Assembly (NCBI RefSeq): GCF_030269685.1
Contig: NZ_BSTT01000001.1
Coordinates: 62,001 to 126,000, forward strand
Origin: Actinomycetospora sp. NBRC 106378
GTDB taxonomy: Bacteria; Actinomycetota; Actinomycetes; Mycobacteriales; Pseudonocardiaceae
Direction of reading: 5' to 3'
DNA length: 64,000 nt
Shown here one piece after another: positions 7,552 through 53,534 of this stretch (position 1 is its first letter; each line of letters opens with the position of its first letter). The notes under the pieces are model-generated. The model did no database searches and was not told the DNA's origin. It was given only the letters and a program-made list of their open reading frames with translations. A program made the translations under genes and the position numbers.

Positions 7552-7742
7552 CACGGGGCTCCTGACCTCGTCCGGAGATGATCGAGGACCTCACGGTAGG
7601 AGGGCGCCACCGACCGTGGGTGCCGTTTCGGGGAAGTCGACAGCGGGAGGACGACGTGCCCCTCGGCGAGCGGCTCCCGCCCCGACGGCGGGTCGTGCAC
7701 CCCGACCCGGCCTTGTCGCGGGCTGCCGCCGGAGCGCGCCTA

Positions 7743-7771
7743 CCTTGTCGTTGCGAATCAGAACGACAAGG
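7743..7771. repeat. Inverted repeat CCTTGTCGTT / AACGACAAGG with flanking copies of its half-site
   Basis: Perfect 10-bp arms (7743-7752 and 7762-7771) around a 9-base loop. The half-site recurs nearby: CCTTGTC at 7711-7717, and a 13-bp direct repeat GACAAGGCGGGCG at 7765-7777 and 7797-7809. It could be an operator cluster or a decayed palindromic element. Confidence 0.6.
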
Positions 7772-7847
7772 CGGGCGGGCCCGGGCGGGAGGCCGTGACA
7801 AGGCGGGCGAGCAGCGCCGACACGAGCGAACGGGAGCGGGCCGGCGC

Positions 7848-26031: not shown

Positions 26032-26699
26032 TGGTCGGCTACGGGGACACGGTCGGCACCGGCGTCAACGACGGCGGGCCGATCGAGAACGTCGTGACGT
26101 CCGGGAAGTTCGAGCTCGACGGCGGGTCCTGGGACGTCGACAACAACGTCTGGATCCTCGGCGACTCCAGCGAGGTCGTCGTCATCGACGCGGCCCACGA
26201 CGCGCAGGCCATCCGGAAGGCCGTCGGCGACCGCAACGTCACCGCGATCCTGTGCACGCACTCGCACAACGACCACGTCAACGCCGCCCCGGCGCTGTCG
26301 AAGGCGCTCGACGCGCCGATCCTGCTCAACCCCGAGGACCGGGTGGTGTGGGACCTGACCCACCCCGACCTCGAGCCGGACGGTCGGATCGAGGACGGCG
26401 AGACCTTCACGATCGCCGGGATCGACCTGAAGATGATCCACACGCCCGGGCACTCACCGGGTTCGACGTGCTTCTACGCGCCCGACCTCGGCGTCGTCTT
26501 CACCGGCGACACCCTGTTCCAGGGCGGGCCGGGAGCCACCGGGCGGTCGTACTCCGACTACGGGGTCATCCTCGAGTCGATCGAGCGCAAGCTGTTCGCA
26601 CTGCCCGGCGAGACGATCGTCCGCACCGGGCACGGGGACCACACGAAGATCGGCGACGAGTCGCCGCATCTCGAGGAGTGGAAGGCGGCGAAGGAATAG
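26031..26699 (+). CDS. MBL-fold hydrolase of the mycothiol-formaldehyde operon
   Basis: 222 residues. Metallo-beta-lactamase metal ligands: THSHNDHVN (H-x-H-x-D-H, about residue 78), TPGHSPGS (about 137), GDTLF (about 158) and a C-terminal GHGDHT. Homologues next to mscR in mycobacteria are thought to handle formyl-mycothiol or related thioesters, analogous to glyoxalase II. ATG 26031 overlaps the mscR stop, so the two are translationally coupled. The glutamylcyclotransferase-like gene overlaps its 3' end. Confidence 0.88.
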   Translation: MVGYGDTVGTGVNDGGPIENVVTSGKFELDGGSWDVDNNVWILGDSSEVVVIDAAHDAQAIRKAVGDRNVTAILCTHSHNDHVNAAPALSKALDAPILLNPEDRVVWDLTHPDLEPDGRIEDGETFTIAGIDLKMIHTPGHSPGSTCFYAPDLGVVFTGDTLFQGGPGATGRSYSDYGVILESIERKLFALPGETIVRTGHGDHTKIGDESPHLEEWKAAKE

Positions 26700-27868
26700 C
26701 CGCCGTCCCGGACGACGAGTACCCGGCCGACCCCTATCCCGGGGTCGCGCCGGGTTTCTCGTTCCTGCACGACGACGGCCTGACCCACGAGCTGGTTCCC
26801 GACGACCGCTGCCGCGGCGGCTGGCGCGTCGGCGCCACCGCGATCGACGACCTCGTGCGGGTCCCGCTCGCCGGGCGCGTGCCGGTCCTGGCCTACGGGT
26901 CGAACTCCTGCCCGTCGAAGATCACGTGGCTGCGCCGCGAGCTCGGGCTGCCCGGCCCGGTGGTGGCGCTGCGCGTCACGGTGTCGGGGATGGCCGCGGT
27001 GTGGGCCGCGGGCCTCCGCGTCCGCGACGACGCCCGTCCCGCCACGCTGTTCTCCCCCCGTGGCAGGAAAGCGTCGTTGCTGTCACCTCGTGACAGCAAC
27101 GACGCTTTCCTGCCACGTGACGAGACCCACCACGTCTGGCTCGCCACCCCGGAGCAGGTCGCCGTGCTCGACCGGTGCGAGGGCCGGGGCAGCCGGTACG
27201 ACCTGGCCTGGCTGCACGGGGCCACGGTGCACGACGAGCGGGGGGTCCGGCTCGACCCGGTGCTCGGGTACTGGCCCGCCCCGCGACGGCCCGGGGAGGA
27301 CCCCCGCACCGACCGGTCGCCGCTGCTCGTCGACGGCGCCCCGGTGCGGATCCGCGACGTGACCCAGGCGGCGGCGCGCCGCCTCACGGGCGTCCCGGCG
27401 CCGGTGCCGTCCGACGCCGCGACCGTGGTCCCCGCGGGCTGCCCCGACCCGCGTTCCTGGCCCGACCGGGTCTTCGTCTACGGCACCCTGCAGCCCGGGG
27501 CGTCCGCATGGTGGCGGCTCGCGCCGGCCGCCCGGGCGAGCACACCCGCCGTCGGGACCGGGCAGGTCTACGACACCGGGCTGGGCTACCCCGCGCTCGT
27601 GGCGGGCCCGGGGACGGTGCACGGGCACGTCGTCACGCTCACCGACCCCGCGCGCGCCCTGCCCGCTCTCGACGCGTACGAGGGTCCGGACTACCGGCGG
27701 GAACGGGTGGTCGTGTACCGGGAGGCGAACGCCGCGGAGCGCTCCGCCGACGGGTCGGCGACGGCGTCCTCGACCGGGTCCGGGCCGGTGCTCGCCTGGG
27801 CCTGGCTCTGGGACTCGGCGCCACCACCGGAGTGGCCGACGGTGACCGGTTCCTGGTCGGAGCCCTGA
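26678..27868 (+). CDS. Gamma-glutamylcyclotransferase-like protein with a palindrome-encoded in-frame insert
   Basis: About 396 residues. The C-terminal third carries a GGCT/AIG2-like fold: VFVYGTLQPGASAWWRL (about 267), then YDTGLGYPALV and LDAYEGPDYRRE. The N-terminal half has a second start of the kind, VLAYGSNSCPSK (about residue 70), so it may be a tandem of two related domains. Residues 128-147 are encoded by a perfect 59-bp palindrome (27059-27117). It reads RKASLLSPRDSNDAFLPR and splits the first domain without breaking the frame. The start is uncertain: GTG 26678 overlaps the MBL gene by 22 bases. The 3' end overlaps a gene on the other strand by 178 bp. The activity is not known; glutathione is absent from most actinobacteria. 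Confidence 0.65.
   Translation: MEGGEGIAAVPDDEYPADPYPGVAPGFSFLHDDGLTHELVPDDRCRGGWRVGATAIDDLVRVPLAGRVPVLAYGSNSCPSKITWLRRELGLPGPVVALRVTVSGMAAVWAAGLRVRDDARPATLFSPRGRKASLLSPRDSNDAFLPRDETHHVWLATPEQVAVLDRCEGRGSRYDLAWLHGATVHDERGVRLDPVLGYWPAPRRPGEDPRTDRSPLLVDGAPVRIRDVTQAAARRLTGVPAPVPSDAATVVPAGCPDPRSWPDRVFVYGTLQPGASAWWRLAPAARASTPAVGTGQVYDTGLGYPALVAGPGTVHGHVVTLTDPARALPALDAYEGPDYRRERVVVYREANAAERSADGSATASSTGSGPVLAWAWLWDSAPPPEWPTVTGSWSEP
27059..27117. repeat. 59-bp perfect palindromic element inside a coding sequence (CCTGCCA/TGGCAGG family, copy 1)
   Basis: Arms of 28 bp (27059-27086 and 27090-27117) are fully complementary around a 3-base centre CTC; the left arm begins CGTGGCAGGAAAGCGTCG. It lies in frame within the gamma-glutamylcyclotransferase-like gene. 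A 25-bp stretch of the right arm recurs exactly at 35643-35667. The symmetry is such that the opposite strand, in the matching frame, encodes nearly the same peptide. Confidence 0.85.
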
Positions 27869-28233
27869 TCGGTATCGCCCTCGGCGCGCGCGTGGCGCGG
27901 CGGCGTCACCGTCATCGGCACGGAGACGGCGAGGCGGCCCGCCGTCGTCACGAGCACGATGTGGTCGGAACCCGCGTCGGCCCGCGGCTCGGTGACCGAC
28001 TCGTCGGCGGGCGGCTGGTCGTCCCGCACCGACCGGCCGTCGGGGGCGGCGCGGCGCAGCAGCACGGCGGCGCGGACGAGCAGGGCGATACCCGCGAGCA
28101 GCGCGAGCCCCGCGACCCCGAACGCCACGAGCGCGAGCACCGGCGAGTGCAGCCGTGGCGCCTGGGTGATCGCGAGCGGGGCGGCCGCGGCGAGCAGGGC
28201 GACGGTCACGACGAGCACGACCAGCAGCCGCAT
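27691..28233 (-). CDS. Hypothetical membrane protein with two transmembrane helices
   Basis: 180 residues from ATG 28233, which follows GGGGTGGGG. Two hydrophobic segments (about residues 3-25 and 33-60) precede a polar tail rich in Asp, Glu, Gln and Ser. No family recognised. The last 178 bp are antisense to the end of the convergent cyclotransferase-like gene, and the residues there are of low complexity, so the true end may be earlier or the gene may have decayed. An upstream ATG at 28266 is possible but has no ribosome site. Confidence 0.5.
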   Translation of the reverse strand: MRLLVVLVVTVALLAAAAPLAITQAPRLHSPVLALVAFGVAGLALLAGIALLVRAAVLLRRAAPDGRSVRDDQPPADESVTEPRADAGSDHIVLVTTAGRLAVSVPMTVTPPRHARAEGDTDQGSDQEPVTVGHSGGGAESQSQAQASTGPDPVEDAVADPSAERSAAFASRYTTTRSRR

Positions 28234-28377
28234 CCCCCACCCCCGCCCCACGAGACCCGGGATCATGCTGGCCGACGGCGGGTGGTCGTTCCAGGACCCG
28301 GCCGGGTTCGACCTGATCACGATCGGGTGGAGCGTTCCCGGTTGGACAGCCCGTCGGGCGGACGGGACAGTGATCGC

Positions 28378-29286
28378 GTGCTCGAGATCGACGGCGTGTC
28401 GAAGCGGTACGGGACGGTCCGGGCGCTGCAGGACATGACGTTCTCGGTCCGCCCGGGCGAGCTGTTCGGCTTCGTCGGGGCGAACGGCGCGGGCAAGACG
28501 ACGACGATGCGGATCGTCCTCGGGGTGCTCGCGGCCGACGCCGGTGAGGTCCGGCTGGAGGGCCGGCCGATCGACGCGGCCCGCCGGCGGCGGATCGGCT
28601 ACATGCCCGAGGAACGCGGCCTGTACCCGAAGATGGCGGTGGGCGAGCAGCTGCGCTACCTCGCCGAGCTGCACGGGATGAGTGCCGGCGACGCGAAGGC
28701 CGCGGCGGCGCGCTGGACCGCGCGGCTCGGGGTGGCGGAGCGCGCCGGCGAGGAGGTGCAGAAGCTGAGCCTCGGCAACCAGCAGCGGGTGCAGCTCGCG
28801 GCGGCCCTGGTCCACGAGCCGGACGTCCTCGTGCTCGACGAACCGTTCTCCGGCCTCGACCCGGTGGCCGTCGACGTGATGAGCACGGTGCTGCGGGAGC
28901 GCTGCGACGCGGGCGCGCCGGTCGTGTTCTCCTCCCACCAGCTCGACCTCGTGGAGCGGCTGTGCGACCGCGTCGGGATCGTCCGGGACGGGTCGATGGT
29001 GGCGCAGGGACGGGTGGACGAGCTGCGCGCGGGCGACGGGACGGGCGCCTCGACCGTCGTCGTCCATGCCCCCGACGCCCCCGCGGGCTGGACCGACGAC
29101 GTGCCGGGGGTGAGCGCGAGCCGGGCCGAGCACGAGCGCACGGTGGTCACCCTCGCGGCCGGTGCCGACGACCAGGCGCTGTTGCGGGCGGCCCTCGCCA
29201 CCGGCCCGGTCCACGAGTTCACGCACCGGCGGCCGTCGCTGACCGAGCTGTTCCGCGAGGCGGTCGGCGAGGGGGTGGTGGCGTGA
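28378..29286 (+). CDS. ABC transporter ATP-binding protein
   Basis: 302 residues. Walker A is GANGAGKTT (about residue 37), the signature LSLGNQQRVQ (about 131), Walker B VLVLDEPFSGLDP (about 150), the switch His in VFSSHQ. The C-terminal 80 residues are the extension seen in NatA/DrrA-like exporter ATPases. The next gene, overlapping by GTGA, is the cognate permease. GTG 28378 lies 6 bases after a GACAGT hexamer, with TTGGAC 18 bases before that, so the promoter may give a leaderless transcript. Substrate unknown. Confidence 0.9.
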   Translation: MLEIDGVSKRYGTVRALQDMTFSVRPGELFGFVGANGAGKTTTMRIVLGVLAADAGEVRLEGRPIDAARRRRIGYMPEERGLYPKMAVGEQLRYLAELHGMSAGDAKAAAARWTARLGVAERAGEEVQKLSLGNQQRVQLAAALVHEPDVLVLDEPFSGLDPVAVDVMSTVLRERCDAGAPVVFSSHQLDLVERLCDRVGIVRDGSMVAQGRVDELRAGDGTGASTVVVHAPDAPAGWTDDVPGVSASRAEHERTVVTLAAGADDQALLRAALATGPVHEFTHRRPSLTELFREAVGEGVVA

Positions 29287-30452
29287 GGACGGTCCTGCTC
29301 ATCACCCGGCGCGAGTTCCTGGCGCGGGTCCGCGGTCGGGCGTTCGTGATCTCGACGGCCGTGATCCTGCTGATCCTCGTCGGCTACTCGCTGTTCGTCG
29401 GCTCGCTGAGCTCGGCCGGCGACTCCGGCTCGACGACGGTGGCCGTCGCCCCCGAGACCCTGGGCATCACCTCGGCGCTGCGGACCGCCGCCGACGACCA
29501 GGGCCGGATCGTCCGCGTGCTGCCGGTGTCCGACGCCGCCGCCGGACGGGCCCTGGTGGCCTCGGGGGACGCCGACGCGGCGCTGTCCGGCCCACCGACC
29601 CGCCCGCGCGTCGACGTCGAGACCTCCCTCGGCAGCGCGACCGGCTCCGTCGTCACCGTCGCGACCACCCTCCTCGCCCAGCAGCAGCTGCTGCCCGACC
29701 CGTCCGCCGCCGACGCCGCGATCGCCGCTGCCGAACCCGTCGTCGTCGCCGCGCGGCCGGAGGACCCGGCGCAGGGGCTGCGGATCGGGCTCGGCGCCTT
29801 CGGGGCGTTCCTGCTCTTCTTCTCCATCCAGACCTACGGCGCGATGGTCGCCCAGGGCGTGGTCGAGGAGAAGTCCAGCCGCGTCGTGGAGATCGTGCTC
29901 GCGACGGTGCGGCCGTGGCAGCTGCTGCTGGGCAAGGTGCTCGGGCTCGGCGCGGTCGGGCTGCTGCAGCTGGTCGTGCTGGGCGGGGTCGGGCTGGGGG
30001 TGGCGGGCACGGCGGGGCTGCTGGTCGCCGGGGCCGGGCTGACGGGGACGCTCGTCTCCGTGCTGGTCTGGTACCTGCTGGGCTTCACGATGTACGCGAC
30101 CGTCTACGCCGCGCTCGGCTCCCTGGTGTCGCGCCAGGAGGACACGCAGAGCGTGCTGACCCCGGTGTCCATCGTCGTGCTGATCGGCTTCGTCGCCGGG
30201 TTCAACCTGGTGCTCTCGGCGCCGACGTCGACCGCGCTGACGGTGCTCTCGCTCATCCCGCCGTGGACCCCGCTCGTGATGCCGGCGCGGATCGCGCTCG
30301 GCGGCGTGCCCCTCTGGGAGGTCGCGCTCGCGTTCGTCCTGACGGCGGCGTTCACCGCCCTCGTGCTCTGGCTCGGCGGCCGGATCTACGCCCGCTCGGT
30401 GCTCCGCACCGGCGCGCGCGTGTCGTGGCGCGAGGCGTTCACCGGGCGGTAG
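29283..30452 (+). CDS. ABC-2 type permease (NatB-like)
   Basis: 389 residues. One N-terminal membrane helix (residues about 20-42) is followed by a large extracytoplasmic domain (about 45-170) and then six helices (from about 172). VVEEKSSRVVEIVLATVRPW is the conserved coupling segment of NatB/YhaP-type permeases. It pairs with the preceding ATPase, with overlapping stop and start (GTGA at 29283). The pair probably exports a small molecule or Na+; the sequence does not say which. It converges on the photolyase gene, 3 bases from its end. Confidence 0.88.
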   Translation: MRTVLLITRREFLARVRGRAFVISTAVILLILVGYSLFVGSLSSAGDSGSTTVAVAPETLGITSALRTAADDQGRIVRVLPVSDAAAGRALVASGDADAALSGPPTRPRVDVETSLGSATGSVVTVATTLLAQQQLLPDPSAADAAIAAAEPVVVAARPEDPAQGLRIGLGAFGAFLLFFSIQTYGAMVAQGVVEEKSSRVVEIVLATVRPWQLLLGKVLGLGAVGLLQLVVLGGVGLGVAGTAGLLVAGAGLTGTLVSVLVWYLLGFTMYATVYAALGSLVSRQEDTQSVLTPVSIVVLIGFVAGFNLVLSAPTSTALTVLSLIPPWTPLVMPARIALGGVPLWEVALAFVLTAAFTALVLWLGGRIYARSVLRTGARVSWREAFTGR

Positions 30453-30454
30453 CG

Positions 30455-31828
30455 CTACAGGGCGTTGAACCGGGCCAGGGCCTCGTTCCGCTCGGCCTTG
30501 TGGTCCACGATCGGCTCCGGGTAGTCCGACGGCGGGTCGGGCAGCTTCCAGGGCTGGTGCACCTTCTTGCCCTCGATCTCGGCGAGCTCCGGGACCCATC
30601 GGCGCACGTAGTCGCCCTGCGGGTCGAACCGCTCCCCCTGGGTCACCGGGTTGAACACGCGGAAGTACGGCGCCGCGTCGGTGCCGGTGCCCGCCGCCCA
30701 CTGCCAGCCGTGCTGGTTGGAGGGGAGGTCGCCGTCGACGAGCAGGTTCATGAAGTGTCGCGCGCCCCACCACCACGGCAGGTGCAGGTCCTTCACCAGG
30801 AACGACGCGACCGCCATCCGCATCCGGTTGTGCATCCACGCCTCGCCCTGCAGCTGGCGCATCGCGGCGTCGATCGCCGGGAAGCCGGTGCGGCCCTCCT
30901 GCCAGGCCGCGAACTTCTCGTCGGCCTTCTTCCCCGAGTCGAGCGGGATCGAGTCGAACTTCGGGTCGAAGTTCTCCCGGGCGCTGCGGGGGAACCACCA
31001 GAGGACGTGGCCGTAGAAGTCACGGAAGCACAGCTCGTTGCGGTAGGACGTCGCGCCCTTGCCGTCGCCCCCGGCGTCGGCCAGCAGGGTGCGGGGATGC
31101 ACCGTGCCGTACTTGAGGTGCACGCTCATCCGGCTGGTCCCGGGCTTGTCCGGGCGGTCGCGGGTGTCGTCGTAGTCGGTGAGGTGCTCGTCGACGAACG
31201 CCTCCCAGCTCTCCCGCGCCGCCTGCTCCCCCGCCTCGGGGAGCTCGGCGTCGAGCTTCGGGTCGTCGGGGACCTTCACCGCGCGCGGGCCGCCGTCCTT
31301 GTCCGACGGGTCCATCCACGTCAACGTCGTCGCGTCGGTGTCGGCCGGGGCGGCGTCCCGGACCCGCTTCGTCCACTCCTTGGAGAACGGGGTGAACACC
31401 TTGTACGGGGTGCCGTCGGACTTCGTGATCGTCCCCGGCTCGGTCAGGTACGGGGAGCCGGAGCGGACGAGCTCGACGTCTCCGAGGGCCTTCTCCACCG
31501 CCTCGTCGCGCTCGCGGCCGTAGGGGCCGAAGTCGGCCGCGACGTGCACGGAGGCCGCCCCGACGGCCTGCGCGATCCGCGGGACGACGTCGGCCGGGTC
31601 GCCCTTCACGACGAGGAGGCGGCCGCCGAGCTGCTCGTCGAGCGCCCGCAGGCAGCGGTACAGGAAGGCGGTGCGCCGCGGGCCGGCCGGCTCGAGGAGC
31701 CTCGGGTCGAGCACGAACAGCGCGAGCGCCCGGTCGGCGCGCTCCTTCGCGGCCAGGAACGTCGGCTGGTCGCCGACCCGCAGGTCACGGCGGAACCAGA
31801 CGACGGCGGTGGAGGTCGCGGGAGCCAT
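30455..31828 (-). CDS. phrB: Deoxyribodipyrimidine photolyase (CPD type)
   Basis: 457 residues. The N-terminal photolyase domain starts VVWFRRDLRVGDQPT. The FAD-binding domain has EAWMHNRMRMAVASFLVKDL (about 340), then PSNQHGWQWAAGTGTDAAPY (about 377-396), the conserved flavin and tryptophan-wire region. The enzyme splits pyrimidine dimers using blue light. ATG 31828 has TACCTG 6 bases upstream and no ribosome site. It is downstream of citrate synthase on the same strand but separated by a nest of palindromes, so it is probably transcribed alone. Confidence 0.93.
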   Translation of the reverse strand: MAPATSTAVVWFRRDLRVGDQPTFLAAKERADRALALFVLDPRLLEPAGPRRTAFLYRCLRALDEQLGGRLLVVKGDPADVVPRIAQAVGAASVHVAADFGPYGRERDEAVEKALGDVELVRSGSPYLTEPGTITKSDGTPYKVFTPFSKEWTKRVRDAAPADTDATTLTWMDPSDKDGGPRAVKVPDDPKLDAELPEAGEQAARESWEAFVDEHLTDYDDTRDRPDKPGTSRMSVHLKYGTVHPRTLLADAGGDGKGATSYRNELCFRDFYGHVLWWFPRSARENFDPKFDSIPLDSGKKADEKFAAWQEGRTGFPAIDAAMRQLQGEAWMHNRMRMAVASFLVKDLHLPWWWGARHFMNLLVDGDLPSNQHGWQWAAGTGTDAAPYFRVFNPVTQGERFDPQGDYVRRWVPELAEIEGKKVHQPWKLPDPPSDYPEPIVDHKAERNEALARFNAL

Positions 31829-31872
31829 GCCCGACAGGTACCCGCACCCGGCGTCGGGAAGCCCCCGGGACA

Positions 31873-31988
31873 CGCGTGAGGGGAACCCTCGAGCCACAAG
31901 AGCGACCAGATGTTCCCCTCACGCGCCCGGTGGTCGGCGCGTGAGGGGAGGATCCGAGCGTTCTTATGGGCTGAGGGTTCCCCTCACG
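31873..31988. repeat. Nested palindromes built on CGTGAGGGGA / TCCCCTCACG
   Basis: Four arms of one sequence alternate in orientation: 31873-31886 (CGCGTGAGGGGAAC), 31912-31925 (its exact complement), 31940-31949 (CGTGAGGGGA) and 31979-31988 (TCCCCTCACG). The outermost pair 31875-31889 and 31974-31988 is also perfectly complementary over 15 bp. The block can fold either as two side-by-side hairpins or as one long stem. It fills the gltA-phrB gap. Confidence 0.8.
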
Positions 31989-32003
31989 TGGAGCAGGCGC
32001 GGA

Positions 32004-33305
<1,302 letters not shown>

Positions 33306-33510
33306 CGAATGCATCCCTCTCACGCGTGCTCGAGCGGGAGGGGGACGACGCCGGTCCGGCGGGACGGGGACGGTCGGTCCCCGCGTCGTCGATGGCGTCA
33401 CCCCGAGGCGAACTCCCGCGGGTGTTGGGGCGTCGTACGCTGCGCGAACCGTAGCGCTCGCGCGCCGATCACCGCAGCACGGGAATCGCGGACACCGGCA
33501 GTGGAAAAGG

Positions 33511-34440
33511 TCACGCCCGGTTCGTGCCGGTCGCTCCGTCTCCTGCCACCTCGGCCCGGGTCGGCGGCTCCGCGCCCGCCCGCGAGCACGTCCAGCCCGC
33601 GACCCGCGCGGCGAAGGTGAGGGCGGCGTGCCAGTCGTCGGACGTCATCGCGGCGACCGCGGACCGGTCGAGCAGGCCGCGGTCGTGCAGGTGCGCCAGC
33701 AGCGCGGCGTGGACGGAGTCCCCCGCGCCGATCGTGTCCACCACGGGTCGGGAGGTGTCCGCGGGGACCTCGACCACCCCCGTCGTCGTGAACGCCCGGA
33801 GGCCCTCCGCGCCGCGGGTGACGACCACCGCGCCGGCGCCCGCCGCGAGCAGGTCCTCCGGCTCGCGACCCCACCACGCGGCGTCCTCGTCGGAGAGCTT
33901 GACCAGCCCCGCGACGGCCGCGATCGCGTCCAGCCGGGCCCGGACGGCCCGCGCGTCGCCGACCAGGGCCGGACGGATGTTCGGGTCGAGGCTGACGAAC
34001 GTCCCCTCGGCCGCCGCGCGCCGGGCGAGCTCGGTGTACACCGAGGCGCCCGGCTCCAGCAGCAGGGAGAGGGTCCCGACGGCGAGCGCGGTCGCCCCGG
34101 TCGCGCCGGGATCGGCCACGAGCCGGTCGGCGGTGCCCTCGACGTGGAAGGAGTAGCGGGCGTGGCCGGACCCGTCGACGGTGACGACGGCGAGCGTGGT
34201 CGGCTCGTCGCCGCGCTGGACGAGCCCGGTCCGCACCCCGGAGTCGACGAGCCGCTCCAGCAGGGCGTCGCCGAACGCGTCGGTGGACAGGCGGGTCAGC
34301 ATCGCGGTGGGCACCTCGAGGCGCCCGAGGCCGACCGCCACGTTGTAGGGCCCGCCGCCGAGGCGCGGGGCGAGCGGCGCCAGGTGCCCCGGCTCGACCG
34401 GCACCAGGTCGACGAGGGCCTCCCCTCCCGAGACGATCAC
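33511..34440 (-). CDS. PfkB-family carbohydrate kinase (fructokinase-like)
   Basis: 309 residues. Sugar-binding GGGPYNVAVGLGRL (about residue 28) and the C-terminal PfkB signature DTIGAGDSVHAALLAHL with catalytic Asp (about 247). It phosphorylates a furanose sugar, most often fructose, in the cytoplasm. GTG 34440 overlaps the stop of the aldose epimerase (GTGA), so the two form a coupled sugar-use operon. No transporter is adjacent. Confidence 0.88.
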   Translation of the reverse strand: MIVSGGEALVDLVPVEPGHLAPLAPRLGGGPYNVAVGLGRLEVPTAMLTRLSTDAFGDALLERLVDSGVRTGLVQRGDEPTTLAVVTVDGSGHARYSFHVEGTADRLVADPGATGATALAVGTLSLLLEPGASVYTELARRAAAEGTFVSLDPNIRPALVGDARAVRARLDAIAAVAGLVKLSDEDAAWWGREPEDLLAAGAGAVVVTRGAEGLRAFTTTGVVEVPADTSRPVVDTIGAGDSVHAALLAHLHDRGLLDRSAVAAMTSDDWHAALTFAARVAGWTCSRAGAEPPTRAEVAGDGATGTNRA

Positions 34441-35324
34441 CGGACCGCCTCCAGACCCCACCGGACGGTCCAGGTCGCCCCGGGCTGCAGGACGACGAGG
34501 TCGGTGCCGGAGTTGAGGGCGTCCGGCGGGCAGGTCATCGGCTCGACCGCCACGGCCTTGCCCTCCCGCCCGAACGGGCTGGCGGGGGTGAAGGCCTGGA
34601 CCCAGCCGACGTTGCGGTCGCCCCAGAGGCGGGTCCCGGTGCCGTCGGGCGCCATCAGCTCGGCGAGCACGCCCGCGACGCCGGGGCGGACGCCGAAGCA
34701 CGTGTCGAGCTCGAGGTCGGCGACGCGGCGGGGGCGGCGCAGCGACTCCTCGTCGGTGACGTCGCGGGCGGGGCCGGTCGGGATCTGCCGGTCGTCGACG
34801 TCGAGCACGGTGGCGGTGGGGACCTGCAGGGTGCAGTCGCCGCTGGGGTGGTCGCCGACGCGCAGGTAGGGGTGGGTCCCGACCCCGGCGGGCACGTCGG
34901 CGTCGCCGGTGTTGGTGAGGACGTGGGTGACGGTGAGGCCGGCCGGCTCGACGGCGTAGGTGGTCTCCACGTGCAGCGGCTGCGGCCAGCCGTGCGCGGC
35001 CGGCACGTCGATCGCCAGGGTGACGCCGTCGTCGGTGTGCTCGACGACGGTCCACGGCTGCTTGCGGACGAGGCCGTGGATGGCGTTGCCGTTCGCGGGC
35101 TCGGTGACGTCGAGCTCGTGGGTGGTGCCGGCCCAGTCGAACCGCGCCCCCGCGGTGCGGTTGGGCCACGGGATGAGCACGCAGCCCGCGCCCATCGGCG
35201 GGTCGCCGTCGTAGGTCTCGACGTGGTGCGCGCCGTCGACGGTGAACGCGCGCAACCCGGCTCCGACGCCGGTGACGGTCGCGTGCGCACCGCCCGCGCG
35301 GATCTCGAACTCGCTCGGCGCCAT
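34437..35324 (-). CDS. Aldose 1-epimerase family protein (mutarotase)
   Basis: 295 residues. Sugar-binding motif LIPWPNRTAGARF (about residue 50), catalytic His in NAIHGLV (about 83), second His in GVGTHPYLR (about 150) and catalytic Glu in AVEPMT (about 263). It interconverts anomers of a sugar, feeding the overlapping sugar kinase gene. ATG 35324 lies 6 bases after TACGGT with no ribosome site, so a leaderless transcript is likely. The 358 bp upstream hold palindromes. Confidence 0.85.
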   Translation of the reverse strand: MAPSEFEIRAGGAHATVTGVGAGLRAFTVDGAHHVETYDGDPPMGAGCVLIPWPNRTAGARFDWAGTTHELDVTEPANGNAIHGLVRKQPWTVVEHTDDGVTLAIDVPAAHGWPQPLHVETTYAVEPAGLTVTHVLTNTGDADVPAGVGTHPYLRVGDHPSGDCTLQVPTATVLDVDDRQIPTGPARDVTDEESLRRPRRVADLELDTCFGVRPGVAGVLAELMAPDGTGTRLWGDRNVGWVQAFTPASPFGREGKAVAVEPMTCPPDALNSGTDLVVLQPGATWTVRWGLEAVR

Positions 35325-35390
35325 GGCGGCACCGTAGTGGGTCGCCCGGGCGGACGGGACGATCCACGCAACCGGTTGCCGTCCGGGCTG

Positions 35391-35449
35391 CCGCGAGGGG
35401 CACACCAGGCAGGCCCGCGCGCCTCTCGACCTGCTTCACGTGACCCTCG
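35391..35449. repeat. TCAGGCA-family palindromic element, degenerate copy
   Basis: CGAGGGGCAC (35394-35403) pairs with GTGACCCTCG (35440-35449) at 9 of 10 positions. The arm continues ACCAGGCAGG on the left, but the right side reads ACCTGCTTCAC, so inner pairing is partial. The sequence parallels the fuller copy 90 bp away. Confidence 0.6.
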
Positions 35450-35483
35450 GCGACACCGGGACGGGCTCCCCGGCCGCCGCCGA

Positions 35484-35545
35484 CCGCGAGGGGCACACCA
35501 GGCATGCCCGCGGCCGGTCGAGGCTGCCTGACGTGACCCTCGCGG
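35484..35545. repeat. TCAGGCA-family palindromic element, copy 2
   Basis: 21-bp arms (35484-35504 and 35525-35545) match at 18 positions; all three exceptions would be G-U or A-C pairs in RNA. The loop is 20 bases, the same as in the element at 7848-7907. The complement of its right arm equals the left arm of that element at 19 of 20 positions. Confidence 0.75.
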
Positions 35546-35642
35546 CGGCCCGGCCGTCGACTCCGGACGTCGGTGGACCCGACGTCGGGTGGACGTCCTC
35601 GACGGACGCGCGGTCCGGGAGAGCGGCGTTCCTGCCACTGGC

Positions 35643-35667
35643 TGACAGCAACGACGCTTTCCTGCCA
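35643..35667. repeat. Half copy of the palindrome found at 27059-27117
   Basis: 25 bases, beginning TGACAGCAACGACGC and ending TTTCCTGCCA, are identical to 27091-27115. The complementary left arm is missing; instead TTCCTGCCA is repeated directly at 35629-35637. It lies 16 bases after the stop of the ABC exporter gene. Confidence 0.75.
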
Positions 35668-35682
35668 TGGAGGAGGGGCCGG

Positions 35683-37461
35683 CTACGCCGCCGTCAGCTC
35701 GGCGTACCGGCCGTGCTCCGACACGAGGTCGGTGTGGGTGCCGGACTCGATCACGCGGCCGTGGTCGAGGACCGCGATCCGGTCGGCGTCGCGGACCGTC
35801 GAGAGGCGGTGGGCGATCGTCAGGGTGGTGCGGCCGACGGCGAGAGCGTCGAACGCCTCCTGGACGGCCCGTTCGGTCGCGGTGTCGAGCGCCGAGGTGG
35901 CCTCGTCGAGCACGAGGATCCGCGGGTTGCGGAGCAGGGTGCGGGCGATGGCCAGGCGCTGGCGCTCACCACCGGAGAAGCGGTGTCCGCGCGGCCCGAC
36001 GACGGTGTCGTAGCCCTCGGACAGCGCCTCGATCACGTGGTGGACCTGGGCGGCACGGGTGGCGGCGAGGATCTCCTCGTCGGTCGCGTCGGGCTTGGCG
36101 TAGCGCAGGTTGTCCATGACGGTCGCGTGGAGCAGGTAGGTCTCCTGGCTGACGACGCCGACGATGGCGGCGAGGTCGTCCAGGCGCAGGTCGCGCAGGT
36201 CGACGCCGTCGATCGTGATGCGGCCGGCGTCGGGGTCGTGCAGGCGGGCGACCAGCGCGCCGAGCGTCGACTTGCCCGAACCGGTCTCCCCCACCAGCGC
36301 CAGGGTGGTCCCGGCGGGGATGTCGAGCGAGACGTCGTCCAGCGCCGGACGGTCGGAGCCGGGGTAGGTGAAGGTGACGCCCTCCAGCCGGAGGTCGCCG
36401 CGCGGCGTGGGCAGGTCCACCGGGTGCTCCGGCTCCTCGACCTCGATCCGCGTGTCCTGGTACTCGAAGATGCGGGCGAACAGCGCCAGCGAGGCCGACA
36501 CCGACACCCCGACGTCGAGCAGGGAGGACAGCGGTCGGAAGACACCGGCCTGCAGCGAGGTGAACGCGACGAGCGTGCCGATGGACAGGGCTCCGGCGGT
36601 CCACGGCAGCCCGGCGCCGAGGTAGATCAGGGCGGGGATCGCCGCGAAGACGATCGACATCGTCGCCATGACCCAGCGGCCCGCCAGCTGCGAGCGCAGC
36701 TCGAGGTCGGTGAGGCGCAGTGACGAGTCGGTGAACCGGGAGACGAGCGCGTCGCCGGTGCCGAGCGTGCGGGAGAGGCGGACGCCGTCGATCGACAGGC
36801 CCTCCTCGATGGTGACGTTGAGGTCGGCGAGCTCGCGCTGGCGCTGCGCGGTGATGGTGCGCCGCAGCCGGGCGACGCGCCGCGAGAGCAGCACGGCCGG
36901 GGGCAGCACCAGCAGCGTCACGAGCGAGAGCTGCCAGGACAGGGCGACCATCGCGACCCCGGAGGCGATCACCGTCGTCAGGTTGGCGGCGATGGACGTG
37001 GCGGTGGAGGTGACGACGGACTGCATGCCGCCGATGTCGTTGGTGATCCGCGACTGCACCTCGCCGGTGCGGGTGCGGGTGAAGAAACCGAGCGACAGGC
37101 GCTGCAGGTGGGAGAACACGTCGGTGCGCAGCGTGTGCATGACGCGCTGGCCGATCTTCGTGGAGATCCAGGTCTGGACGACGCCGAACGCGGCGGTCAC
37201 GGCGGCGACCACGACCATCCCGACGACGAGCCACACCAGCAGCCGCAGGTCGCGCTGCGGCAGCGCGACGTCGATGACCTCGCGCAGCAGGAACGGCTGG
37301 GCCAGCCCGACGATCGACGACGCGACGATCACGGCGACGACGACGGCCAGGGACCAGCGGTAGGGGGCGAACAGCCGGGCGATCCGGCGCAGCGAGACCT
37401 GCTTGGCCTGCTCGCGGTCGCGGCGACGCTGTTCAGCGGAGACTTCGGAAGGGCGGGGCAA
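35683..37461 (-). CDS. ABC exporter, fused permease and ATPase
   Basis: 592 residues. Six-helix type IV permease domain (about 35-315), then an ATPase domain: Walker A GETGSGKST (about 382), Q-loop VSQETY, signature FSGGERQRLA (about 484), Walker B ILVLDEATSALD (about 505), H-loop AHRLS. This is the homodimeric or heterodimeric multidrug/lipid exporter architecture (MsbA/BmrA-like). The start is TTG 37461, supported by AGGAGG 6 bases upstream. The divergent MarR gene and the palindromes between them suggest drug-inducible repression. Confidence 0.92.
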   Translation of the reverse strand: MPRPSEVSAEQRRRDREQAKQVSLRRIARLFAPYRWSLAVVVAVIVASSIVGLAQPFLLREVIDVALPQRDLRLLVWLVVGMVVVAAVTAAFGVVQTWISTKIGQRVMHTLRTDVFSHLQRLSLGFFTRTRTGEVQSRITNDIGGMQSVVTSTATSIAANLTTVIASGVAMVALSWQLSLVTLLVLPPAVLLSRRVARLRRTITAQRQRELADLNVTIEEGLSIDGVRLSRTLGTGDALVSRFTDSSLRLTDLELRSQLAGRWVMATMSIVFAAIPALIYLGAGLPWTAGALSIGTLVAFTSLQAGVFRPLSSLLDVGVSVSASLALFARIFEYQDTRIEVEEPEHPVDLPTPRGDLRLEGVTFTYPGSDRPALDDVSLDIPAGTTLALVGETGSGKSTLGALVARLHDPDAGRITIDGVDLRDLRLDDLAAIVGVVSQETYLLHATVMDNLRYAKPDATDEEILAATRAAQVHHVIEALSEGYDTVVGPRGHRFSGGERQRLAIARTLLRNPRILVLDEATSALDTATERAVQEAFDALAVGRTTLTIAHRLSTVRDADRIAVLDHGRVIESGTHTDLVSEHGRYAELTAA

Positions 37462-53021: not shown

Positions 53022-53506
53022 GCCTCTGGCGGCGCCTGTACGGCGCGGATCCCCTGCACCTGCTCGCCGTGCTCGGCTGCCTCGCGCTGTCGGGCTACGT
53101 GGTGTCGCTGCTGTGGGAGGACCCCAGCTGGGTGGCGCTGCTGATCTGGTTCGTCGGCGCCGTGATCGGGCACGACCTCGTGCTCTACCCGCTCTACGCG
53201 CTGGCCGACCAACCGGTGGTGCTCGCGCGGTGGGCCCGGCGCCGGTACGGCCGGGAGCGCCCGGTGCTGGTGCCCGCGATCAACCACGTGCGCGCGCCGG
53301 TCCTCGGATCGGCCGTGCTCGGCCTGATCTACCTGCCGACGATCACCCGGCACGGCGAGGACGCGTTCCGGTTCACCGCCGGGCTGGGGATGGAGGGCAT
53401 CTTCCAGCACTGGCTGCTGATCACCGCCGCGCTCTTCCTCGGCAGCGCGGTGGTCTACGCGGCGCGGTGCGGCTTCGCCGCACGTAAGCAGAAAAGGTCG
53501 GTATGA
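53018..53506 (+). CDS. Small integral membrane protein in the molybdoenzyme operon
   Basis: 162 residues, four hydrophobic helices (about 14-32, 38-62, 95-112, 125-150), no family recognised. GTG 53018 overlaps the stop of the cytochrome-molybdopterin gene (GTGA), so the two are translated together, and it may be an assembly or subunit partner. The last residues KQKRSV and the TGA stop are encoded by a perfect hairpin (53487-53520), so the C-terminus may have been added by insertion of that element. Confidence 0.75.
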   Translation: MSLWRRLYGADPLHLLAVLGCLALSGYVVSLLWEDPSWVALLIWFVGAVIGHDLVLYPLYALADQPVVLARWARRRYGRERPVLVPAINHVRAPVLGSAVLGLIYLPTITRHGEDAFRFTAGLGMEGIFQHWLLITAALFLGSAVVYAARCGFAARKQKRSV

Positions 53507-53520
53507 CGACCTTTTCTGCT
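53487..53520. repeat. Perfect hairpin with a stop codon in its loop
   Basis: 14-bp arms AGCAGAAAAGGTCG (53487-53500) and its exact complement (53507-53520) flank GTATGA, in which TGA ends the membrane protein gene. The arms are much less GC-rich than the surroundings. It may terminate transcription from both sides, as the next gene is convergent. Confidence 0.8.
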
Positions 53521-53534
53521 CACCTGCGAAGCAC

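Follow-up and report, generated by a model that had tools for sequence, protein, structure and literature searches.

The stretch of DNA analysed here, called the window, comprises 64,000 nt from Actinomycetospora sp. NBRC 106378. Within it, a gene for a GGACT/AIG2-like (gamma-glutamylcyclotransferase-like) protein contains a perfect palindrome (Table 1). The GTG start codon of the gene is a prediction of a codon-usage gene caller. The Pfam GGACT domain is matched at residues 265-394, in the C-terminal part of the protein, which itself is matched in 17 of the 18 Actinomycetospora genomes. An initial annotation of this DNA had described a 59-bp palindrome with 28-bp arms and a 3-base centre, placed in frame within the gene, and the sequence bears this out: the arms, at 27059-27086 and 27090-27117, are perfect around the centre CTC, and the frame is open throughout the called gene. 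If mismatches are permitted, the arms extend to 36 nt at 92%. The minus-strand frame is also open across the palindrome and gives a nearly identical peptide, as had been noted.

Table 1. Features of the window that relate to the palindrome (A, first arm; A', inverted A; strand "." where none applies).
Feature	Position	Strand	Remarks
Host gene, GGACT/AIG2-like (gamma-glutamylcyclotransferase-like) protein	26678..27868	+	gene caller and Pfam
Perfect palindrome, A-A' form, in frame (RGRKASLLSPRDSNDAFLPR)	27059..27117	.	59 bp
Arm A, GTGGCAGGAAAGCGTCGTTGCTGTCA	27060..27085	+	
Centre CCTCG	27086..27090	.	5 nt
Arm A'	27091..27116	-	A inverted
Second copy, asymmetric (arm A and diverged second half)	~35616..35668	-	

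It had also been proposed that the palindrome adds residues without breaking the frame. The frame is indeed kept, but 59 is not a multiple of 3 and the insertion is not a clean one. Counted on the alignment, the linker between the residues ATL and HH has 26 residues in the window protein vs. 8 in an empty relative (G006), so that residues were both lost and gained at this site, with a net gain of 18 codons. The 27-nt arm has three matches within the window (up to 3 mismatches) vs. none in 100 shuffles. A second occurrence, previously placed at 35643-35667, is present and non-coding; however, it is not a lone arm, since the arm match at 35642-35668 belongs, as the first half, to an asymmetric copy of the repeat whose second half is partly diverged. 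This copy stands 20 nt behind the stop codon of a minus-strand gene called at 35683-37461. Two more long hairpins of the window, at 7710-7804 and 53479-53528, are outside the repeat family.

The arm is abundant in the genome. Across the 6.3-Mb genome of the strain, a 21-nt arm is matched 226 times (up to 3 mismatches) vs. 0 for the reversed control; hence, besides the copy at 35643, more than 200 other matches exist. In a named genome collection, from which the strain's own genome may be absent, 43 stretches contain the exact palindromic core, each of them belonging to Actinomycetospora soli SF1 or A. chiangmaiensis DSM 45062. Among 297 genomes of the family (46 genera), the palindrome (up to 3 mismatches) occurs in six, all Actinomycetospora, with 86, 58, 53, 40, 6, and 2 copies. 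In the same six genomes a 25-nt arm occurs 241, 155, 139, 74, 15, and 1 times, and it is absent from the other 12 of the 18 Actinomycetospora genomes. A wider repeat pattern (up to 3 mismatches) is found in 11 of the 18, including G010 (63 places), G011 (24), and G017 (23); in three genomes the pattern is matched just once, which means little because the reversed control also gives one match each in G008 and G017. Outside the genus, 144 genomes yielded one hit to the wider pattern (up to 2 mismatches), itself with 2 mismatches. A search of Rfam with positions 26500-36500 of the window gave nothing above the gathering score and four matches up to E 5, the best with 38.1 bits vs. 67. Chance and assembly artefact are ruled out as origins by the shuffled and reversed controls and by orthologous copies in other assemblies.

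The repeat unit is about 53 nt long (range 53-60 bp) and directional, with a first arm A, a 5-nt centre, and a second half B. In 160 of 197 rows the inverted arm follows after 5 nt (A-A' form); in the remaining 37 the form is asymmetric, with a second half B like TGGCAGGAACGCCGCATCGTCG, and 34 of these 37 have fewer than 12 mismatches to A'. The two forms were separated at 5 mismatches, a limit across which intermediates exist, and the rows leave out arms near locus ends and identical windows. In the clade of A. soli and A. chiangmaiensis, B is replaced in many copies by an inverted A, giving a perfect palindrome. The inner spacing of the inverted core arms is 11 nt in all 72 pairs found within 80 nt. 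The arms are conserved and the centre is free; some positions of the repeat are far more variable than their neighbours, an unevenness that neutral decay does not predict.

Several subfamilies can be distinguished. The A-B, C, G010-type, and F units and one unit from G001 resemble one another over 53 nt beyond shuffled controls; p values are indicative here because we composed the 53-nt units from several copies each. The F family occupies 80 places in G017. A further family, H, has 53 places in G001, 48 in G007, 39 in G004, and 37 in G015, and both F and H are missing from G000, G002, G005, and G009. The kinship of H to A is doubtful because the similarity is weak (p about 0.0075 among many comparisons). 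When stretches of G007 and G006 were searched by k-mers for a recurring family at gene ends, H did not reach the top list; the sequence TAGAAGCAGCGAAC, found 5 times in G007, was recognised as H through the gene purL (see below). Other short repeats lie in the neighbourhood. The motifs GCACACCAGGCA and ACGTGACCCTCG, dispersed or in tandem, are found at 35400-35560 of the window and in other G000 stretches, with five non-coding occurrences each. An 18-20 nt repeat, TTCCCGACGACGGGTCGG, stands with close variants behind some asymmetric copies (L078, L079, L091, and other G000 and G005 stretches), each variant having 8 to 19 non-coding occurrences. Another short non-coding repeat is represented by GAGCGAACGGCACTCTCG in G000 (7) and GTGCGCGAGAGTGCCGTTCG in G005 (8).

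The main niche of the repeat, which lay beyond the view of the first annotation, is directly behind stop codons. Positions were counted with a simple codon-usage gene caller written for this purpose (coding fraction 0.90), and the counts are shares of copies rather than of genes, because the stretches were chosen around copies. Among 196 arms, 73 are behind a gene end and opposite another gene end, 51 are behind a gene end and opposite a gene start, 31 have the reverse arrangement, 28 are inside called genes, 7 are between divergent genes, and 6 are at edges. When the 126 arms that follow a gene end at less than 700 nt are considered, 113 start within 34 nt of the stop codon, and the median distance to GGAAAG is 18 nt.

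This position just behind stop codons is what a 3'-end signal would show, that is, a bidirectional terminator or an mRNA-protecting hairpin selected in place, the copies inside genes being accidental. The hairpin of the window copy is predicted to be very stable (-57.3 kcal/mol). Moreover, in 16 of the 18 genus genomes, read by script, the 3' end of purL carries by eye a palindromic repeat of some kind in most species: A-A' in G000 and G005, C in G002, F in G017, H by pattern in G001, G004, and G007 and by eye in G013 and G015, and a remnant in G009. However, G006 and G016 have no spacer behind purL, and the remaining species have other sequences there. In G010, a 49-nt unit starting with GGCAATGGCACATTCC is present in two direct copies behind this gene (L237). 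A 3'-end signal also accounts poorly for the downstream sequence, as TTTT is found in none of 125 flanks of 20 nt, whose composition is G 46%, C 30%, A 14%, and T 10%.

The pairing of the arms bears on the same question. In 77 distinct palindromes, pairing between the two arms does not exceed that of randomly combined arms (22.73 vs. 22.66 of 26 pairs; 302 of 1000 shuffles are at least as high). The arms are thus conserved as a sequence and not as a pair, yet any hairpin would suffice as a 3'-end signal. Two related possibilities were also examined. Insertion of the repeat into older terminator hairpins was rejected, the 6-nt flanks pairing no better than shuffled ones (952 of 1000 as high). 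A strand bias of G-T over A-C mismatches, which would point to an RNA role, is not clear in tandem palindromes (49 GT, 42 AC); for asymmetric copies, the counts are 45 GT vs. 51 AC in tandem gaps and 39 vs. 26 in convergent gaps.

The history of individual loci was followed in 40 orthologous pairs among four species, compared with random cross-species pairs matched by form. The first arm is no more alike between orthologous copies than between random ones (identity 0.882 vs. 0.884, 602 of 1000 draws as high). In contrast, the second half is (0.823 vs. 0.764), as are the upstream (0.458 vs. 0.392) and downstream flanks (0.472 vs. 0.384), with 0 of 1000 draws as high in each case. The 5-nt centre gives 0.57 vs. 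0.50 (50 of 1000 draws as high), and gene ends 0.749 vs. 0.368. The form itself is the same in 35 of the 40 pairs. Since the second half and the flanks keep the history of the locus, copies are at least partly inherited in place; the first arm, which has no such history, alone follows the pool of the species. Because spacers are near saturation between these species, the missing history of the first arm could also result from purifying selection on it. Sites are largely retained: at 9 of 13 off-centre orthologous gene ends the other species have an A copy, and the other four comprise one inverted copy, one remnant (by eye), and two that are the sides of one gap. This retention also fits selection for a 3'-end function, as does the partial history of second half and flanks. 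With the missing covariation, the T-poor flanks, and the copies within PrmC-like and AtuA-like genes weighed against it, a 3'-end signal selected in place seems rather unlikely as the explanation of the family.

The same observations can be read in terms of a dyad DNA-binding site for a putative chromosomal protein whose specificity would depend on the species, the sites co-evolving with it. The fixed inner spacing, the free centre between arms conserved as sequence, and the first arm devoid of locus history would all follow. However, asymmetric copies are frequent, one genome can harbour two subfamilies, with orthologous sites switching between them, and the sites inside genes would have to be kept for binding. 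Such a binding site is therefore an improbable account.

Copies inside genes deserve particular attention. From 18 called genes with an internal arm we selected 15 plausible ones, setting aside L087 and L158, which are chance matches, and L089 (5046-6452), an implausible gene whose copy is also in the common phase. In 13 of the 15 the copies share one reading phase (...SNDAFLP...); two of these genes are orthologues, and the copies of L152 and L155 are out of phase. A second phase is open too in 134 of 137 intergenic A-A' rows. The N-terminal cases (L078, both of L079, L081, and L155) may be due to wrong start calls. The best internal cases include the window GGACT-like gene. In an AtuA-like gene, the copy lies between the AtuA domain (residues 1-418) and the AtuA_ferredoxin domain (462-557); in a SARP-type regulator of A. 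soli, between BTAD and AAA_16; and in a PrmC-like methyltransferase, within the MTS domain match. The segment encoded by the copy in the PrmC-like protein of A. chiangmaiensis is RKASLLASSGSNDAFLPR. Pfam gave no match for the in-gene cases L141 and L052.

Comparison of the same codon site across species shows both empty and filled states. At the GGACT-like site, the A-A' form is present in G000 and G005, a longer C-type insert in G002 and G009, and F in G017; the other 11 of the 16 aligned species have a short linker without these residues, so that homologues free of the insert do exist, as had been anticipated. The PrmC-like site was compared in 11 species and the A. chiangmaiensis record. 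It is empty in seven species (12-15 nt; G017, G010, G006, G011, G013, G007, and G004) and holds A-A' in G000 (75 nt) and G002 (60 nt) and the C type in G005 and G009 (69 nt each). At these two sites, which have clear empty states, filling replaced a few codons, with codons both lost and gained, and no target-site duplication was visible by eye. In the AtuA-like linker, G000 carries A-A' and G009 a mosaic; G005 and G002 share the C type, G010 and G011 have the G010 type, G017 has F, and a G001 homologue contains an exact H core. Here the contrast between empty and filled states is weaker, because linkers in which no repeat can be recognised (81-84 nt; G016, a second G009 gene, G013, and G001) are nearly as long as those with a repeat (90-102 nt); G006 and G007 are ambiguous at this site. 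All frames are open at the three compared gene sites. The state of a site fits no single grouping of species: G000 goes with G005 at the GGACT-like site and with G002 at the PrmC-like site. Tentatively, fixed codon positions of conserved proteins may be long-lived docking sites, where each species swaps the repeat, in frame, for its own current subfamily; we hold this to be a serious possibility somewhat short of an even chance.

Inverted copies bracket single genes at 0.7-1.4 kb in L078 (9985-11210), L080 (9747-11095), L086 (9643-10385), and L083 (9506-10408). This arrangement, together with short inverted ends and many near-identical copies, recalls a MITE derived from an insertion sequence, extant or lost, and mobilised in trans by the transposase of that sequence. 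However, no transposase was recognised when the open reading frames of two bracketed stretches were read, and the idea that the inverted copies are transposon ends found no support there. The Y1 transposase (PF01797) is found in none of the 18 genus genomes, the same search being positive in 5 of 14 control genomes. Plasmid and phage collections contain no match to the window copy, and viral contigs contain no exact 20-nt arm. Descent from an insertion sequence of this kind is thus improbable.

With modest confidence, we lean towards reading the window palindrome as one copy of a non-autonomous dispersed repeat, REP/RPE-like, whose sites are long-lived and whose sequence is partly homogenised. 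This reading is drawn from the high copy number, the niche behind stop codons, the minority of in-gene copies that mostly share one phase, the species-specific subfamilies, the shared sites, the first arm devoid of locus history, and the absence of covariation. Most likely of REP/RPE type, the repeat would once have been mobile and would now be resident. Its copies might spread or overwrite one another through a putative enzyme acting in trans, through conversion, or through template switching at existing copies. An occupied site would tend to stay occupied, its sequence, the first arm above all, drifting toward the versions current in the species. Inside genes, the survivors would be those copies that leave the frame intact and encode a hydrophilic linker free of cysteine, and a side benefit in termination or 3'-end protection may explain the niche. 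Several points count against the dispersed-repeat reading: neither a transposition event nor a target-site duplication nor a carrier enzyme was observed, locus history persists in the second half and the flanks with the form mostly unchanged, and AtuA-like linkers in which no repeat can be recognised are nearly as long as those with one.

Protein-coding palindromes are best known from Rickettsia, and among the matches listed in the open-access literature we found no report on the Actinomycetospora repeat. With 18 genomes, several subfamilies, empty and filled sites, and hosts such as a PrmC-like methyltransferase, two questions become testable: by what means such repeats move when no transposase is apparent, and whether a protein merely tolerates the inserted peptide as noise or incorporates it as a part of itself. 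The contrast between a first arm that lacks locus history and a second half and flanks that have it offers a way to measure partial concerted evolution in very short repeats. If the docking sites are real, a short segment of a protein would evolve together with non-coding repeats throughout the genome.

Several known systems resemble this repeat in part. In Neisseria, pairs of uptake sequences act as terminators, a directional motif being often paired in inverted orientation behind genes. The Actinomycetospora unit differs in having about 25 nt and in-gene copies in frame. GTAG REPs, associated with RAYT transposases, are described in the available part of the source as short palindromes at 3' ends in high copy (PMC3733652). 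The Actinomycetospora repeat is also short, at 3' ends, and in high copy; in contrast, its consensus arms are without the GTAG end, and none of the 18 genus genomes has a Y1 transposase.

CGTC-tagged REPs, according to the same partial source, lie less than 20 bp from 3' gene ends, in convergent and unidirectional arrangements, and also inside genes, where dimers and groups code for 20-30 residues; they have no associated transposase, and show a tag at one end, a stem of 8-9 bp with AT at the first two positions, a loop of 4-5 nt, and a tail that is mostly CCA (PMC3733652). Intragenic REPs are also reported in free-living bacteria, and different REPs occur at about the same recB site in two Xanthomonas (PMC3733652). 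Actinobacteria are not among the five phyla named for CGTC repeats, and the word "Actinobacteria" is absent from the main text in the part available (PMC3733652). The Actinomycetospora repeat shares the position next to the 3' ends of convergent and unidirectional genes, the intragenic copies, the lack of an associated transposase as far as the Y1 search goes, and, by eye, the 5-nt loop. Its inner hairpin reads CGTC-GTTGCTGTCA-N5-..., and in A-A' copies the inner stem is flanked by CGTC at either side; also by eye, the stem has at least 10 pairs and starts with G-C, and no CCA tail is present.

Rickettsia palindromic elements (RPE), in the portions of the two papers available, are palindromes of 105-146 bp or about 150 bp dispersed in and between genes, inserted in frame into unrelated proteins with a recurrent peptide (PMC2229807; PMC10969869). 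The likeness to RPE suggested at the outset holds for behaviour: copies are many, those in unrelated genes are in frame with a recurrent peptide and mostly in one phase, and empty homologues exist for the GGACT-like and PrmC-like genes. It does not hold for length, the Actinomycetospora unit being far shorter, nor for placement, since the copies inside genes are a minority. Because of the differences in length, stem, and tail, and as far as the available parts of these sources describe them, the repeat is not filed as a member of either the RPE or the CGTC-tagged REP family. What sets it apart from RPE is its host, a high-GC actinomycete, its location mainly directly behind stop codons, and the filling of its codon sites by different subfamilies in sister species.
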